A DNA stretch of 64,000 nucleotides from Pseudomonadota bacterium (lineage in GTDB: Bacteria > Pseudomonadota > Gammaproteobacteria > Burkholderiales > JABEVD01), in assembly GCA_021802545.1 (NCBI GenBank), contig JAJZRS010000014.1:1-64000 (forward strand). The letters run 5' to 3'. The position numbers and the translations under genes are program-made. Positions within the stretch are counted from its first letter, which is position 1. Each line of letters starts with the position of its first letter. Of the stretch, positions 49,126 to 55,748 are shown piece after piece. Under the pieces are notes generated by a model. That model did not search any database. It saw only the letters and a program-made list of their open reading frames with translations, and was not told where the DNA came from.

Positions 49126-50361
49126 TCAGGTCATCATGCCTGCAGCGACCGTGTTGTTGGTCGCCTCGTCGATCAGGATGAAGCTTCCCGTCGCCCGGTT
49201 CTTCGCATAGCTGTCAGAGGCGAGCGCCTGCTGGACCTTGAAGCCGATTTTCGCGATGTCGTTCATGGAAAGTGCATCCTGCCCCGTTTCCTTTTCCAGG
49301 GTGTTGACGTTCACCCTGTAATCGATGCTGCTGAAGGCTATCCTTGCCGTTTTCGTCGCATGCTTGATCAGGTATCTGCGCTGCATGTCTAGCGGCTCGT
49401 CCGCGAGCCAGCAGAGCATCGCCTCGAACTGCTTGTCGAGCTGGGGAAGATTGCCCGCTTTGACGATCATGTCGCCCCGGGAGATGTCGATCTCGTCTTC
49501 GAGCAGCAGGGTGACCGACTGGGGTGCGACGGCTTCGATGAGCGGGCCGTCATAGGTCGATATTTCCCTGATTTTAGTCGTTCTCCCGGAAGGCAGGATC
49601 GCGACTTCGTCTCCGACCATGATGCTGCCCGATTCGATCCGGCCCATGTATCCTCTGAAATCGCCCCATTTGCATACCCACTGCACGGGGAAACGGAAGT
49701 CTTCGGTATTGATGTCGTGGTCGATCTCGATATTCTCGAGTACCGACATCAGCGTTTCTCCTTCGTACCACGGCATGCTGTTTCCGCGCTCGACGACATT
49801 GTCTCCGACCAGCGCCGACATCGGGATGGGAATGATGTTCGCGAGGCCGAGCTTTGCCGCGAAATCGTGAAATTCGGCCATGATGGATTCGAACACTTCC
49901 CTGGAATACCCGACGAGGTCCATCTTGTTGACTGCGACGACGAGATGCGGGATGCCGACCAGGCTGGCGAGATAGGCGTGGCGTTTCGTCTGGGTGAGCA
50001 CTCCGCGTCTTGCGTCGATCAGGATGATGGCGAGATTCGCGGTGGATGCGCCGGTCACCATGTTCCGGGTGTACTGTTCGTGCCCAGGGGTGTCGGCAAT
50101 GATGAATTTCCGCTTGGGGGTCGCGAAATAGCGGTAGGCGACATCGATCGTGATGCCCTGTTCCCGCTCGGCCTGCAGCCCGTCGGTGAGGAGCGAGAGA
50201 TCGATGCCTTCGATGCCGCGGCGTCTCGTGGTGTGCTCGATTGCATTGAGCTGGTCTTCGAAGATCGACTTGGAGTCGTGCAGCAGCCTGCCGATCAGGG
50301 TGCTCTTCCCGTCGTCCACGCTCCCCGAGGTGATGAAGCGCAAGAGTTCGATATGTTCCAT
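49126..50361 (-). CDS. cysN: Sulfate adenylyltransferase subunit 1 (GTPase)
   Basis: 411 aa, without a fused APS kinase. EF-Tu-like GTPase with P-loop GSVDDGKSTLIGRLL, DTPGHEQY and NKMDLVGY. With CysD it makes APS from sulfate and ATP, driven by GTP. Shares one base with cysD. Last gene of the sulfate operon. A little shorter than the E. coli protein. Confidence 0.96.
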   Translation of the reverse strand: MEHIELLRFITSGSVDDGKSTLIGRLLHDSKSIFEDQLNAIEHTTRRRGIEGIDLSLLTDGLQAEREQGITIDVAYRYFATPKRKFIIADTPGHEQYTRNMVTGASTANLAIILIDARRGVLTQTKRHAYLASLVGIPHLVVAVNKMDLVGYSREVFESIMAEFHDFAAKLGLANIIPIPMSALVGDNVVERGNSMPWYEGETLMSVLENIEIDHDINTEDFRFPVQWVCKWGDFRGYMGRIESGSIMVGDEVAILPSGRTTKIREISTYDGPLIEAVAPQSVTLLLEDEIDISRGDMIVKAGNLPQLDKQFEAMLCWLADEPLDMQRRYLIKHATKTARIAFSSIDYRVNVNTLEKETGQDALSMNDIAKIGFKVQQALASDSYAKNRATGSFILIDEATNNTVAAGMMT

Positions 50362-51281
50362 CAGAAATATCCTTCCTTTTTCCTGAGTTCCATGGAAGCT
50401 TCGGAGGTCTGGTCGTCCATCCTGGTTGCTCCCCGTTCGGTGATTCTCGTCACCGCCGTCTCATTGATGATCTCGTCATAGGTGGAGGCGCTCGATTCGA
50501 CAGGGCAGGTGCAGGTCATGTCGCCGACCGTCCTGAAGCGCACCGAGATTTCCTCGACCTTTTCTCCGTCGAGCGGCGCAACGAGATCGGAGACGGGGAC
50601 GAGGCTGTTTCCTCTTCTGATCACCTGTCTCTTGTGGGCGAAATAAATATTCGGGATTTCGAGCTGCTCCCTGGCGATGTACTGCCAGACATCCATTTCC
50701 GTCCAGTTGCTGATGGGAAAGACGCGGATGTTTTCTCCGGGATGAACCCTTGCGTTGTAGAGGTCCCACAATTCCGGTCGCTGGTTCTTGGGATCCCACT
50801 GGCCGAATTCGTCCCTGAAGGAGAAGATGCGCTCCTTGGCCCTCGCCTTTTCCTCGTCCCGCCTGGCACCGCCTATGCAGGCATCGAACCTGTGTTCGGC
50901 GATCGCATCGAGCAGGGTGATTGACTGGAAGGCGTTTCTGCTCTGTCCCGGGTGCTTCAGGATGACGCGCTTTTGCCTGATCGAATCTTCCATGGAGCTC
51001 ACGACCAACCGCTCCCCGAGCTCGAGCGCACGCTTGTTCCTGAAGTAGATCACCTCCGGAAAATTGTGCCCCGTATCGATGTGCAGCAGCGGGAATGGAA
51101 ATTTCGCAGGCCTGAACGCCTTTTCGGCCAGGCGCAAGAGGACGATGGAATCCTTGCCTCCGGAAAAGAGCAAGGCAGGGTTGCTGCATTCTGCGGCAAC
51201 TTCGCGCATGATGTGGATCGCTTCGCTCTCGAGTATGTCGAGGTGGTCGAGCTTTTTGTGGAATGCCTGAAGGTTCCCCAT
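50361..51281 (-). CDS. cysD: Sulfate adenylyltransferase subunit 2
   Basis: 306 aa PP-loop ATP sulfurylase. PP-loop LLFSGGKDSIVLLRL, DTGHNFPEVI, and CIGGARRDEEKARAKERIFSFRD are diagnostic. Works with CysN. One nt after cysH. Confidence 0.97.
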   Translation of the reverse strand: MGNLQAFHKKLDHLDILESEAIHIMREVAAECSNPALLFSGGKDSIVLLRLAEKAFRPAKFPFPLLHIDTGHNFPEVIYFRNKRALELGERLVVSSMEDSIRQKRVILKHPGQSRNAFQSITLLDAIAEHRFDACIGGARRDEEKARAKERIFSFRDEFGQWDPKNQRPELWDLYNARVHPGENIRVFPISNWTEMDVWQYIAREQLEIPNIYFAHKRQVIRRGNSLVPVSDLVAPLDGEKVEEISVRFRTVGDMTCTCPVESSASTYDEIINETAVTRITERGATRMDDQTSEASMELRKKEGYF

Positions 51282-51282
51282 G

Positions 51283-51957
51283 TTATGCCTTTTTCCTGTG
51301 TAGTCCGCATTCTTTGCTTGAGGTGTCTTCCCACCACCAGCGCCCTGCGCGAATGTCCTCGCCTTTTGTGATGGCGCGCGTGCAGGGGGAGCAGCCTATG
51401 CTGGGATATCCCCGGTCGTGCAGTGCATTGTAGGGAACGCCTTGCAATTGGATGTAATTCCATATTTCAGCTTCGCTCCATTCGAGGAGCGGGTTGAACT
51501 TGTAAAGGCCGTTGCCCGAATCAAACTCGGATGCATTGAGGCCGGTCCTGGTTTGCGACTGCTGACGACGCATGCCGGTGATCCACGAGCCATGGCCTTC
51601 GAGCGCTCTTGAGAGCGGCTCGACCTTCCTGATCTCGCAGCAGGAACGCCTCAGCTCGACCGAATCGTAGAAGGCGTTCGGCCCGTGCGTCTCGAGATAG
51701 GCTTCGACCGCCTGCGCCTTCGGGAAATAGACGGAAAGGTCGATCCGGTAGTGCTCCTTCGTCTTTTGCATGAGCGCATAGGTTTCCTCGGGAAGGCGCC
51801 CCGTGTCGATCGTGAAGACCGAGACGGGAATGCCGTGCCTTGCGATCATGTCGGTCAGCACCATGTCCTCCAGGCTGAAACTGCTCGCGAAGCATGCCTT
51901 TGCATGGTTTGCGGCAATGAATTCCAGATCGATGCGCAGTTTTTCGATTTTTTCCAT
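51283..51957 (-). CDS. cysH: APS reductase (assimilatory, [4Fe-4S] type)
   Basis: 224 aa. It reduces adenylylsulfate to sulfite and AMP with thioredoxin. Beside the catalytic Cys near the end (ECGLH), it has the paired Cys of RRSCCEIRK and the CxxC of GCSPCTRA, the four cluster ligands that mark APS reductases rather than PAPS reductases. Consistent with no APS kinase in the operon. Confidence 0.93.
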   Translation of the reverse strand: MEKIEKLRIDLEFIAANHAKACFASSFSLEDMVLTDMIARHGIPVSVFTIDTGRLPEETYALMQKTKEHYRIDLSVYFPKAQAVEAYLETHGPNAFYDSVELRRSCCEIRKVEPLSRALEGHGSWITGMRRQQSQTRTGLNASEFDSGNGLYKFNPLLEWSEAEIWNYIQLQGVPYNALHDRGYPSIGCSPCTRAITKGEDIRAGRWWWEDTSSKECGLHRKKA

Positions 51958-53964
51958 TTAGGCTGCCCTCGGCAATGCTTCTGAAAGATCGAGCTGCCTG
52001 TCGTGCAGCAGGCAGTATTCGGCAGCGTCGTGCGTCCAGGCGTCGAGCGATTTGAACAGGCAGGAGAGCGACTCGGACTCGGCGCCGAGCAGCCTGTTCA
52101 CGATGTCCTCGTACAGATCGCTCAATTCCCCGGGCACCAGGGACTTGAGGCTGTCTGAGATCTCGGGCAGGGTGTCTCCGGAATTGCCGTTGTTGAGGTG
52201 CACGATGCCCTGCCCAATCAGGGTGAGGATGGATTCGGCGCATCTTGCCGCCTCGCCGTACTTGCGCTGCATGAAGAGCGCATCGCGGTGACGGCGCTCG
52301 TGGGCCGCCTCGAAGAAGCTCGATCCGATTCTGACCTGGGACGCGCCGGCGCATTCTCCTCCGCCCAACTGGAGGACCTTGAATTCCCTCGACTCGCCAT
52401 GGTCGTGCAGCACCGAGAGAATTTCCTCAGGCTTGACCTCGACAAGATCCTGCAGCAGTTCGCCGACGAAATCCTGTTCCTGGCTTCTCACCCAGGAATG
52501 GAATGTCCCTTTGCCGTCGTGGGCCGTTTTCAGGCGAGCAATTGCTTCTTCTATCCTCGCTGCGGGAACGGAAGGTCCCTTGATCGCGAGACCGCCTTCT
52601 CCGGTGCCGTCCCCGCCGAGATAGATCTGGTAATGCGGGATCAGCTTTCCGTGAAGACGTCTGCCTTCTCCATAGATGCCGATGTCGCCCGTCTCCGGCT
52701 GGGCGCAGCCGTTGTGGCACCCTGACACCCTGATGCGCAGATCGCTTCTTCCGCCGTCGAGCTTTGTGGCTGCGATCATGCTGGAGGTGATTCCCAGCCT
52801 GCAGGTGGACGTTCCGGGGCAGGCCGTCACGTTGTCGCCCTGCGCGGGAACGTCGAGGCCGATCGCCGACAATGCGTTGCGCAGATCGGGCAAAATGGTT
52901 TTGGGGACGTTCAGAATCATCAGGTTCTGATCCTGTGTCGTGCGCAGGTCCTGCAGGCCGTATCGATTCACGATCGCTGCAAGTTGCCGCAGCTGGATCG
53001 AGGAAATATGGCCGAGAGGGAGCGCAATCGGGAAAACATAAAGCCCTTCCTGTTTCTGCTGTGCGACCGTTCTCGGCGCGCCCTGTCCGCAGGGGAGGCC
53101 TGTTTCTCCTTTCTTCCAGTCAGCTTGCGGATAGGGATGCTTGGCGAGCGCGCTCCTGGTGATATCGAGTTCTTCGCGGTATTTCATGACGAATCCTTCC
53201 TGACCGAAACGTTCGACCAGGAACTTGATCCTGGATTTCGCGCGCTTGGTCCTGTCGGAATAGCGATTGTGCAGCGACACCAGCGCCTCCATCACGATGA
53301 GCAGATCTTTTTCCTCGATGAAGGGTTCGACCACGATGGCTTCGCGCGGCTTGTGGCCGAGGCCGCCCCCTGCGGTCACCCTGAATCCGAATTTACCTTC
53401 CCGGTGCACGGCAGTGACCCCCAGATCGTGGATCATGGACTGGGCGCAATCCGATTCGCATCCGGAGAAGCTGATCTTGAATTTCCTGGGCATCTGCTGA
53501 TTGAGCGGATTCCTCAGAAAATGCATCACCGCGCCTTCGAGATGGGTTGACACGTCGGCGTGCTCTTTGGGGCAGACGCCGGCCATCGGGCAGAGGGTGA
53601 TGTTGCGCACTGTGTTGCCGCACGCTTCGCGCGTGGTGAGATTCGCCGCATCCAGGATGCGCAGGGCGCTGGACGTTTGTTCGAGAGGCACCGAATGCAC
53701 CTGGATGTCCTGGCGGGTCGTGACATGAGCCGTATCCAGCTGAGAGTGCGCGTCGACCACCTCTGCGATGGCCTCGAGCTGGGCAGGATTGATCGAGCCG
53801 CCGGGGATCTTCACGCGCAGCATGTTGATGCCTTCCTGGCGCTGACCGTAGACGCCCTGCTGCAGTCTGATCGCCGTGAAGCGTTCAGCGTCGATTTGCA
53901 GATTGAGGTAGCCTTTGAGGGCTTCCTCGAAGCGATCAATTTCTTCTGAATTGGTCGGGTTCAT
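51958..53964 (-). CDS. Tandem-domain siroheme sulfite (nitrite) reductase
   Basis: 668 aa with two ferredoxin-like/siroheme repeats. The second repeat has the standard ligands C382-x5-C388 (ACPGTSTC) and C416-x3-C420 (GCHNGC). The first also has a full set, C125-x5-C131 (CPMAGVC) and C169-x3-C173 (GCESDC), unlike usual CysI/NirA where the first half has lost them. About 140 residues of unclear C-terminal domain follow. Reduces sulfite to sulfide for cysteine. SD AAGGAAAAGCC; 13 nt after tauE. Confidence 0.9.
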   Translation of the reverse strand: MNPTNSEEIDRFEEALKGYLNLQIDAERFTAIRLQQGVYGQRQEGINMLRVKIPGGSINPAQLEAIAEVVDAHSQLDTAHVTTRQDIQVHSVPLEQTSSALRILDAANLTTREACGNTVRNITLCPMAGVCPKEHADVSTHLEGAVMHFLRNPLNQQMPRKFKISFSGCESDCAQSMIHDLGVTAVHREGKFGFRVTAGGGLGHKPREAIVVEPFIEEKDLLIVMEALVSLHNRYSDRTKRAKSRIKFLVERFGQEGFVMKYREELDITRSALAKHPYPQADWKKGETGLPCGQGAPRTVAQQKQEGLYVFPIALPLGHISSIQLRQLAAIVNRYGLQDLRTTQDQNLMILNVPKTILPDLRNALSAIGLDVPAQGDNVTACPGTSTCRLGITSSMIAATKLDGGRSDLRIRVSGCHNGCAQPETGDIGIYGEGRRLHGKLIPHYQIYLGGDGTGEGGLAIKGPSVPAARIEEAIARLKTAHDGKGTFHSWVRSQEQDFVGELLQDLVEVKPEEILSVLHDHGESREFKVLQLGGGECAGASQVRIGSSFFEAAHERRHRDALFMQRKYGEAARCAESILTLIGQGIVHLNNGNSGDTLPEISDSLKSLVPGELSDLYEDIVNRLLGAESESLSCLFKSLDAWTHDAAEYCLLHDRQLDLSEALPRAA

Positions 53965-53977
53965 GGCTTTTCCTTTG

Positions 53978-54727
53978 TCAAAATATCAATTTGCCGCCAA
54001 CGAGGATCAGCATGCATGCCAGAATTCCTCTCAGCATTTTTTCGGGGATTTTCGATCCGATCCGGCTGCCGAAAAAGATGCCGGGCAGGGAGCCGATCAG
54101 CAGGCTTTCCAGCAAATGGAAGTCGACCGTGCCGATGGACGCATGTCCGATGCCCGCAATCAGGGTCAGCGGCACGGCATGCGCAATGTCAGTTCCGATC
54201 ACCCTGATGGTGGACAGGCGCGGATACAGATAAAAAAGGGCGACCGTGCCCAGCGCGCCGGCACCCACTGATGAGACGGTGACGAGGATGCCGAGCATGG
54301 CGCCCGTGACCACGGTTGCGAGGCGAAGTCTGTTTTCCGGGAGAGGGCTCAAGCGCCTGATCTTTTCCCTGTAGAGGAGCGCAATGGACGTGAGAATGAG
54401 CGCGATGCCCAGTGTGGTCGTGATGACGGAAACCATGGCATACTTGTCCACGGCCTTCAGGAAGGCGACGCCGAGAAGCGAAGCGGGCACGCTGCCCGAA
54501 GCCAAGAGGCCTGCGATCTTCCAGTCGACATGCCCGCTTCTTCCATGCACCCATGCGCCGCCGGCCTTGGTGATCGCGGCATAGAGGAGGTCTGTACCGA
54601 CCGCAACCGGCGCCTGTATTCCGAAGGCGATCACCAGCAGGGGCGTCATCAGGGAGCCGCCGCCGACCCCGGTCATGCCGACGATCGTGCCTATTAGCAG
54701 CCCGGACAGGACGTATCCGAAGTCCAT
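53978..54727 (-). CDS. TauE/SafE-family sulfite/anion exporter
   Basis: About 249 aa, 7-8 TM helices. Two TauE half-repeats are seen: LSGLLIGTIVGMTGVGGGSLMTP and TGAMLGILVTVSSVGAGALGTVA. As first gene of the cys operon it likely moves sulfite or sulfate. Start MDFGYVL has SD GAGG 6 bases upstream and lies after the mapped -10; the track start (54760) lies inside that promoter. Confidence 0.88.
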   Translation of the reverse strand: MDFGYVLSGLLIGTIVGMTGVGGGSLMTPLLVIAFGIQAPVAVGTDLLYAAITKAGGAWVHGRSGHVDWKIAGLLASGSVPASLLGVAFLKAVDKYAMVSVITTTLGIALILTSIALLYREKIRRLSPLPENRLRLATVVTGAMLGILVTVSSVGAGALGTVALFYLYPRLSTIRVIGTDIAHAVPLTLIAGIGHASIGTVDFHLLESLLIGSLPGIFFGSRIGSKIPEKMLRGILACMLILVGGKLIF

Positions 54728-54755
54728 TGTCATCCTCAAAAATTCGAGATGACCC

Positions 54756-54764
54756 ATCATAGCA
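54756..54764 (-). promoter_or_regulatory. Extended -10 promoter of the sulfate operon
   Basis: TGC-TATGAT on the minus strand, an extended -10 that can work with a poor -35 (TTAGTA). Predicted start near 54749, about 20 bases before the tauE start. It lies in the divergent region with cysB. Confidence 0.5.
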
Positions 54765-54833: not shown

Positions 54834-55748
54834 ATGAAACTCCAGCAATTGCGCTATCTCTGCGAAATCGTGAAGCAGGAACTGAATGTTTCCAATGCGG
54901 CCGATTCGCTTTATACTTCGCAGCCGGGCATCAGCAAGCAGATCAAGCAGCTCGAGGAAGAGCTTGGCATCGATATTTTCGTGAGAAATGGAAAGCGCCT
55001 CGTTGCCGTCACCGAACCGGGGCTGGCGGTGGTTTCGATCGCGCAGCGGATGCTGCAGGATGCGGAGAATCTGAAGCGGGTCGGAGACGAGTTCGGAAGC
55101 CAGCCTGAGGGCAGCCTCAGTCTGGCCACGACGCATACGCAGGCACGCTACGTGCTGCCCACCGTGGTGAAACGCTTCATTGCATTGTATCCGAAGGTCA
55201 CGCTAAACCTGCATCAGGGCAGCCCGTTGCAGATCGCGGAAATGGTCAGATCGGGCGAGGTCGATATCGGGATCGCCACGGAGGCACTCGAACTGTTCGA
55301 GGATCTGGCGATGCTGCCATGTTACGAATGGAACCGTTGCGTCGTGACGCCGCCCGGACATCCTTTGCTCGAAAAGCAAACGATTCGGATCGAGGACATC
55401 GCGCAATTTCCCATCATCACCTACGACTTTGCTTTCACCGGGCGTTCGAAGATCAACAAGGCGTTCGAGGAGAAAGGGCTGAGTCCGAATGTGGTGCTGA
55501 CCGCGATCGACTCGGACATCATCAAGACCTATGTCGAAATGGGGCTGGGGATAGGGATACTCGCCAAGATGGCTTTCGATCCGCAGCGGGACACGAATCT
55601 TCGGGCGATCGATGCTGCGCATCTGTTCGAGCCCAGCACGACAAGGATAGCGATCAGGAAAAACAGTTATCTGAGAGGATACATGTACGACTTCATTCAC
55701 CTTTTCGCGCCGCACCTGGATCGCGCAAAGGTGAACGAACTACTCTGA
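54834..55748 (+). CDS. cysB: CysB-type LysR regulator
   Basis: 304 aa. MKLQQLRYLCEIVKQELNVSNAAD is the CysB N-terminus; the sensor domain has TTHTQARYVLP and ITYDFAFTGRSKINKAF typical of CysB/Cbl. In relatives it activates sulfate-assimilation genes with N-acetylserine. Transcribed away from the operon it likely controls. Its 3' end overlaps fapA by 9 nt. Confidence 0.93.
   Translation: MKLQQLRYLCEIVKQELNVSNAADSLYTSQPGISKQIKQLEEELGIDIFVRNGKRLVAVTEPGLAVVSIAQRMLQDAENLKRVGDEFGSQPEGSLSLATTHTQARYVLPTVVKRFIALYPKVTLNLHQGSPLQIAEMVRSGEVDIGIATEALELFEDLAMLPCYEWNRCVVTPPGHPLLEKQTIRIEDIAQFPIITYDFAFTGRSKINKAFEEKGLSPNVVLTAIDSDIIKTYVEMGLGIGILAKMAFDPQRDTNLRAIDAAHLFEPSTTRIAIRKNSYLRGYMYDFIHLFAPHLDRAKVNELL

Follow-up and report, generated by a model that had tools for sequence, protein, structure and literature searches.

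A branch of single-chain assimilatory sulfite reductases with cluster-type cysteine motifs in both repeats

Results and Discussion

The window, a 64,000-nucleotide stretch of DNA, encodes a 668-residue siroheme sulfite reductase with a complete set of four cluster-type cysteines in each of its two repeats. This double set is the rule in a broad branch of proteins that has no curated label, rather than an oddity of one gene, and the layout represents a conserved form of the assimilatory enzyme that seems not to have been described. The explanation we favor, and rate as fairly probable, is that of a single-chain, probably ferredoxin-dependent assimilatory enzyme of the cysBDHIN pathway with one siroheme and two [4Fe-4S] clusters. 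The gene, its domains and the two cysteine motifs are as follows.

51958–53964, minus strand: cysI-type siroheme sulfite reductase gene, 668 residues (PF01077 and PF03460, fold match)
53647–53850, minus strand: ferredoxin-like half domain of repeat 1, residues 39–106 (PF03460)
53167–53622, minus strand: NIR_SIR 4Fe-4S domain of repeat 1, residues 115–266 (PF01077)
52588–52830, minus strand: NIR_SIR 4Fe-4S domain of repeat 2, a Pfam match that by itself stays under the cut-off
53446–53592, minus strand: repeat 1 cluster motif, C125-x5-C131...C169-x3-C173
52705–52821, minus strand: repeat 2 cluster motif, C382-x5-C388...C416-x3-C420, putative ligands of the catalytic, siroheme-coupled cluster; 100% kept

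The PF03460–PF01077 repeat, the CX5C...CX3C motif of repeat 2 and the fold together place the protein in the siroheme nitrite/sulfite reductase superfamily. Its AlphaFold model, which contains the protein without placed cofactors, adopts the sulfite/nitrite reductase fold with a mean pLDDT of 81; the whole chain matches M. tuberculosis NirA, plant NiR/SiR and E. coli SiRHP, and the N-terminal and C-terminal halves each match known sulfite/nitrite reductase structures. A sequence-only reading of the same DNA had pointed to four cluster cysteines in both halves, and this is confirmed with exact agreement of the motif coordinates (codon of C125 at 53590–53592, of C173 at 53446–53448); the cysteines of the protein lie at positions 115, 125, 131, 169, 173, 292, 382, 388, 416, 420, 538, 575, 635 and 651. 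Its companion statement, that usual CysI and NirA proteins have lost the repeat 1 ligands, likewise holds: the equivalent positions read N, L, P, D in E. coli CysI and S, G, L, gap in a Streptomyces NirA-type protein. A frameshift, pseudogene or chimera is ruled out by the open reading frame and by full-length orthologs of 53–78% identity. Cys115 (EACG, 53620–53622) corresponds in alignment to the cysteine of the EACG motif in M. tuberculosis NirA, where this residue is covalently linked to a tyrosine close to the siroheme. Tyr39 is invariant among the proteins that keep the cysteines; a corresponding Tyr39–Cys115 bond may form here.

Conservation across the branch

All eight cluster cysteines are kept in 110 of 112 readable Pseudomonadota homologs, a set drawn from named genomes and from the order, the class and the phylum that was not chosen on cysteines and includes some near-duplicates. 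In a non-redundant set of 80 Pseudomonadota homologs (below 85% mutual identity, median identity to the window protein 45%), Cys125, Cys131, Cys169 and Cys173 are kept in 97.5, 100, 100 and 97.5%, respectively. The repeat 1 set is not a product of chance, since it is far better kept than the non-motif cysteines 292, 575, 635 and 651 (16, 48, 3 and 46% in the same 80 proteins). The two exceptions, L038 and L077, have lost C125 and C173 jointly, and L038 is placed by the tree inside the cysteine-keeping clade, as expected if the four cysteines form one unit. A gammaproteobacterial clade (L133–L139) keeps four repeat 1 cysteines with C-x4-C in place of C-x3-C. In one genome of the same class as the window genome, two different branch members on one strand are separated by about 1.5 kb (L131 and L139; G601, contig C148, 545–2224 and 3735–5444), one with C-x3-C and the other with C-x4-C in repeat 1.

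Beyond the branch the repeat 1 set is incomplete. Bacteroidota homologs have S, H, H, S or S, D, S, S; enzymes encoded next to DUF934 genes in alphaproteobacteria and Pseudomonas have D/E, A, A, R; Thermus oshimai has C, S, C, H; and haloarchaea and one planctomycete (L093, L097, L102, L103) have C, D, C, C. This last set of three cysteines and an aspartate could still ligate a cluster; equally, partial sets of this kind may bind differently, which is a point against our preferred explanation.

The sequence-only reading had allowed that double sets might prove to be the common state of a family with one cluster. They are indeed the common state in this branch; as to cluster number, we found no cofactor count, spectroscopy, iron count or solved structure for its members. 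That repeat 1 holds no iron–sulfur cluster, its cysteines being kept for zinc, disulfides or a redox switch in what would be a single-cluster enzyme, accords with two clusters having been shown in no member and with the persistence of L038 and L077 with a broken set. We nevertheless judge it quite improbable, given the canonical CX5C...CX3C spacing at homologous positions, the flanking SGCxxxCA, which is the same as in repeat 2, and the strict conservation of all four cysteines. In the two-cluster enzyme that we prefer, C125, C131, C169 and C173 would carry a further [4Fe-4S] cluster that has no siroheme attached.

The branch lacks a curated name because no curated CysI, NirA, DsrA or DsrB model reaches its cut-off. 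The window protein scores 102 bits against 757 required for NADPH-dependent CysI (TIGR02041), 206 against 523 for the NirA family (NF007126), 42 against 393 for DsrA (TIGR02064) and 41 against 342 for DsrB (TIGR02066). Ferredoxin-nitrite reductase (NF007125) gives 209 against 594 bits, and the window protein has Lys163 where NiR has Asn.

One siroheme or two

53476–53817, minus strand: sulfite/siroheme residues R50, R84, R120, K161 and K163 of repeat 1, aligned to MjFsr R355, R388, R423, K460 and K462

In Fsr, four of these residues bind sulfite and the fifth, Arg388, marks an assimilatory-type active site (PMC10229431). All five are 100% invariant in the 80 non-redundant homologs. K163 is replaced by Asn in plant NiR and NirA-type proteins, and the lysine points to sulfite as the probable substrate. 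Catalysis would involve a single siroheme bridged to the repeat 2 [4Fe-4S] cluster (C382, C388, C416, C420), with sulfite predicted to be bound by R50, R120, K161 and K163, as is the case elsewhere among sulfite reductases.

The mirror positions in repeat 2, which would serve a siroheme on the repeat 1 cluster, are occupied by P312, Q344, D377, D408 and R410, so that four of the five anchors are lost, and they vary across the branch; by contrast, the DsrB of the window genome, a protein that serves a second siroheme site, has arginines at the first two of them in an alignment judged by eye. These substitutions bear on the possibility, raised in the sequence-only reading, of two full siroheme–[4Fe-4S] centers per chain; one of them would then be catalytic and the other structural, as in a fused DsrAB heterodimer. 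Both ligand sets are complete, the N-terminal half fits DsrA/AsrC profiles and the C-terminal half DsrB, and the corresponding DsrA cluster of DsrAB has a structural siroheme or sirohydrochlorin bound to it (PMC10229431). Against this stand P, Q, D and D at four of the five second-site anchors, unconserved beside an invariant catalytic set, and the double-siroheme arrangement is in our estimation unlikely. Since the second-site anchors are lost or variable, one siroheme with a siroheme-free second [4Fe-4S] cluster is preferred; the other option of that reading, one siroheme plus one structural cluster, would therefore fit the residue pattern better. The second cluster of this preferred arrangement would be the positional match of the DsrA structural center, most likely with a role either in stabilizing the fold or in relaying or storing electrons for the six-electron reduction.

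Operon and genome setting

53978–54760, minus strand: gene for a TauE/SafE-type sulfite exporter, upstream of the reductase gene within the operon (PF01925, synteny)
51283–51957, minus strand: cysH, (P)APS reductase with C-terminus SSKECGLH (domain and profile matches, synteny)
50361–51281, minus strand: cysD, sulfate adenylyltransferase small subunit (profile, synteny)
49126–50361, minus strand: cysN, sulfate adenylyltransferase large subunit (profile, synteny)
54834–55748, plus strand: LysR regulator of the CysB family, transcribed divergently from the operon (profile, synteny)

The order tauE-cysI-cysH-cysD-cysN with divergent cysB is shared by the majority of 30 related loci taken from named genomes. 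With cysH, cysD, cysN and cysB in this order the locus is an assimilatory sulfate reduction operon, and its conservation identifies the reductase as an assimilatory sulfite reductase. The window genome also encodes dsrAB (L002; G000, contig C25) and a NirB-like protein, which likewise leaves the 668-residue enzyme as the assimilatory one; assimilatory and dissimilatory sulfite reductases thus coexist in this genome. No cysJ scores over the cut-off in the window genome, a 49-contig draft of 99.98% completeness, and we infer from this that ferredoxin is probably the electron donor. The ECGLH end of CysH is a typical (P)APS reductase motif and bears a superficial resemblance to the GGGEC loop of the 668-residue enzyme.

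C-terminal extension, Cys538 and TusA fusions

52348–52365, minus strand: GGGECA loop with the near-invariant Cys538, of low confidence (flexible) in both models
52003–52344, minus strand: five-helix HEPN-like bundle, residues 541–654 (model mean pLDDT 86)

The C-terminal extension, previously noted as unexplained, can now be assigned an anatomy, that of a Cys538 loop followed by a HEPN-like bundle. The top fold matches of the bundle are 3c18, 1o3u (HEPN), 2hsb (HEPN) and MntA-HepT, with weak E-values that are not significant; Pfam HEPN (PF05168) leaves the window tail unmatched and gives a Bacteroidota homolog 17.8 bits against a cut-off of 22. The bundle beyond Cys538 might act as a HEPN-like adaptor. 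Cys538 itself is kept in 97.5% of the 80 non-redundant homologs, and a TusA-like C-terminal domain is present in 41 of the proteins compared, from alpha- and gammaproteobacteria-like genomes (L051, L080, L111–L121, L124, L126, L127 and L131 among them; Pfam TusA E-values of 3.7e-18 for L051 and 1.8e-14 for L080, the other fusions being recognized by CPLHY/CPMNF-type motifs). Among the open-licence papers searched, none describes a sulfite reductase with the double-set architecture, a HEPN tail or a TusA fusion.

Taken together, the Cys538 loop, the TusA fusions and a report of S0 production by four assimilatory sulfite reductases (PMC13188885) suggest, as a hypothesis, a built-in sulfur acceptor, with hand-off via Cys538 and TusA. 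In a DsrC-like version of such in-cis transfer, sulfite would be reduced to the S0 level and its sulfur passed to Cys538, and in the fusion proteins also to TusA, with no release of sulfide. The conservation of Cys538 speaks for it, as do the conserved CPxx motif of the TusA-like domains and the chain ends of some relatives, which in Thermus oshimai coincide with the motif (...GRGECAV) and in L132 follow soon after it. The loop, which would need to reach the siroheme, is however of low confidence in the models; the window protein is without a TusA domain, and E. coli CysI is without the Cys538 loop. We treat this transfer as a tentative possibility, somewhat doubtful on present evidence, and one compatible with the single-siroheme, two-cluster explanation, as both can hold. 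In that explanation, too, Cys538 on its loop might accept or retain the sulfur that is produced.

Ancestry and implications

The description of the protein as a fused DsrA/DsrB-like layout gains support from half-wise profiles, in which the N-terminal half scores best with DsrA and AsrC and the C-terminal half with DsrB (all weak and sub-cut-off), and from a match of the N-terminal half alone to Fsr over the cluster region (E 4.7e-12). That this layout is ancestral is plausible, although character mapping does not favor it. Assimilatory sulfite reductases are held to derive from a one-cluster ancestor that was duplicated and fused and then lost one siroheme-cluster site (PMC10229431), and the motifs would fit the branch as a retained intermediate of this path. 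In the tree, the cysteine keepers form one main clade and one outlier, L079. Two-state mapping of each cysteine, with gain and loss left free, tended toward a root devoid of the cysteines (summed log-likelihood −57.9 versus −67.9); its root lies on the very long E. coli branch and its model ignores the presence of the same motif in repeat 2, for which reasons it does not decide between retention and re-acquisition. Asp is common at position 131 in other families, so that C131 may have arisen later, within the branch.

A large living branch whose single chains still bear the two ligand sets would represent the missing intermediate of the duplication–fusion–loss path and would allow testing which cofactor was lost first. 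The Cys loop and TusA fusions bear on the question whether sulfide is released or sulfur is passed directly to a carrier. A more far-reaching picture, that of a widespread, fused DsrA/DsrB-like branch with a second metal center in its "dead" half and its own DsrC/TusA-like acceptor (the Cys538 loop, and TusA in the fusion proteins), from which the sulfur of sulfite leaves as a protein-bound persulfide and not as free sulfide, strikes us as rather unlikely.

Comparison with known systems

The best fold match is the NirA-type (SirA) ferredoxin-dependent sulfite reductase of M. tuberculosis (PDB 1zj8), which at about 25% identity shares the two-repeat chain, the EACG cysteine (Cys115), the repeat 2 motif and a Lys at K163, and differs by having neither the repeat 1 cluster cysteines nor the Cys loop and helical extension. 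E. coli CysI (SiRHP) shares the fold, the repeat 2 cluster motif, the RRRKK residues and the function within a cys operon; it differs at the repeat 1 positions given above and needs CysJ, which was not found over the cut-off in the window genome. The Bacteroidota nitrite/sulfite reductases L091 and L092 are alike in length, GECA loop and helical HEPN-like tail and differ in their replaced repeat 1 cysteines.

DsrAB shares two ligand sets per pseudo-dimer, the N-terminal half of the window protein resembling DsrA (KxK and cluster cysteines) and its C-terminal half DsrB. In contrast to DsrAB, the window protein is one chain, lies in an assimilatory operon and has lost the second siroheme anchors; it carries canonical CX5C...CX3C motifs in both halves, where DsrB has CXnCCX3C, and Pfam finds in it no inserted ferredoxin domain. 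The F420-dependent sulfite reductase Fsr of group I has the CX5C...CX3C motif and all five of the sulfite/siroheme residues in common with the window protein (PMC10229431 and our alignment); it differs in being a single half that acts as a dimer, with an inserted ferredoxin in addition to its F420 domain.
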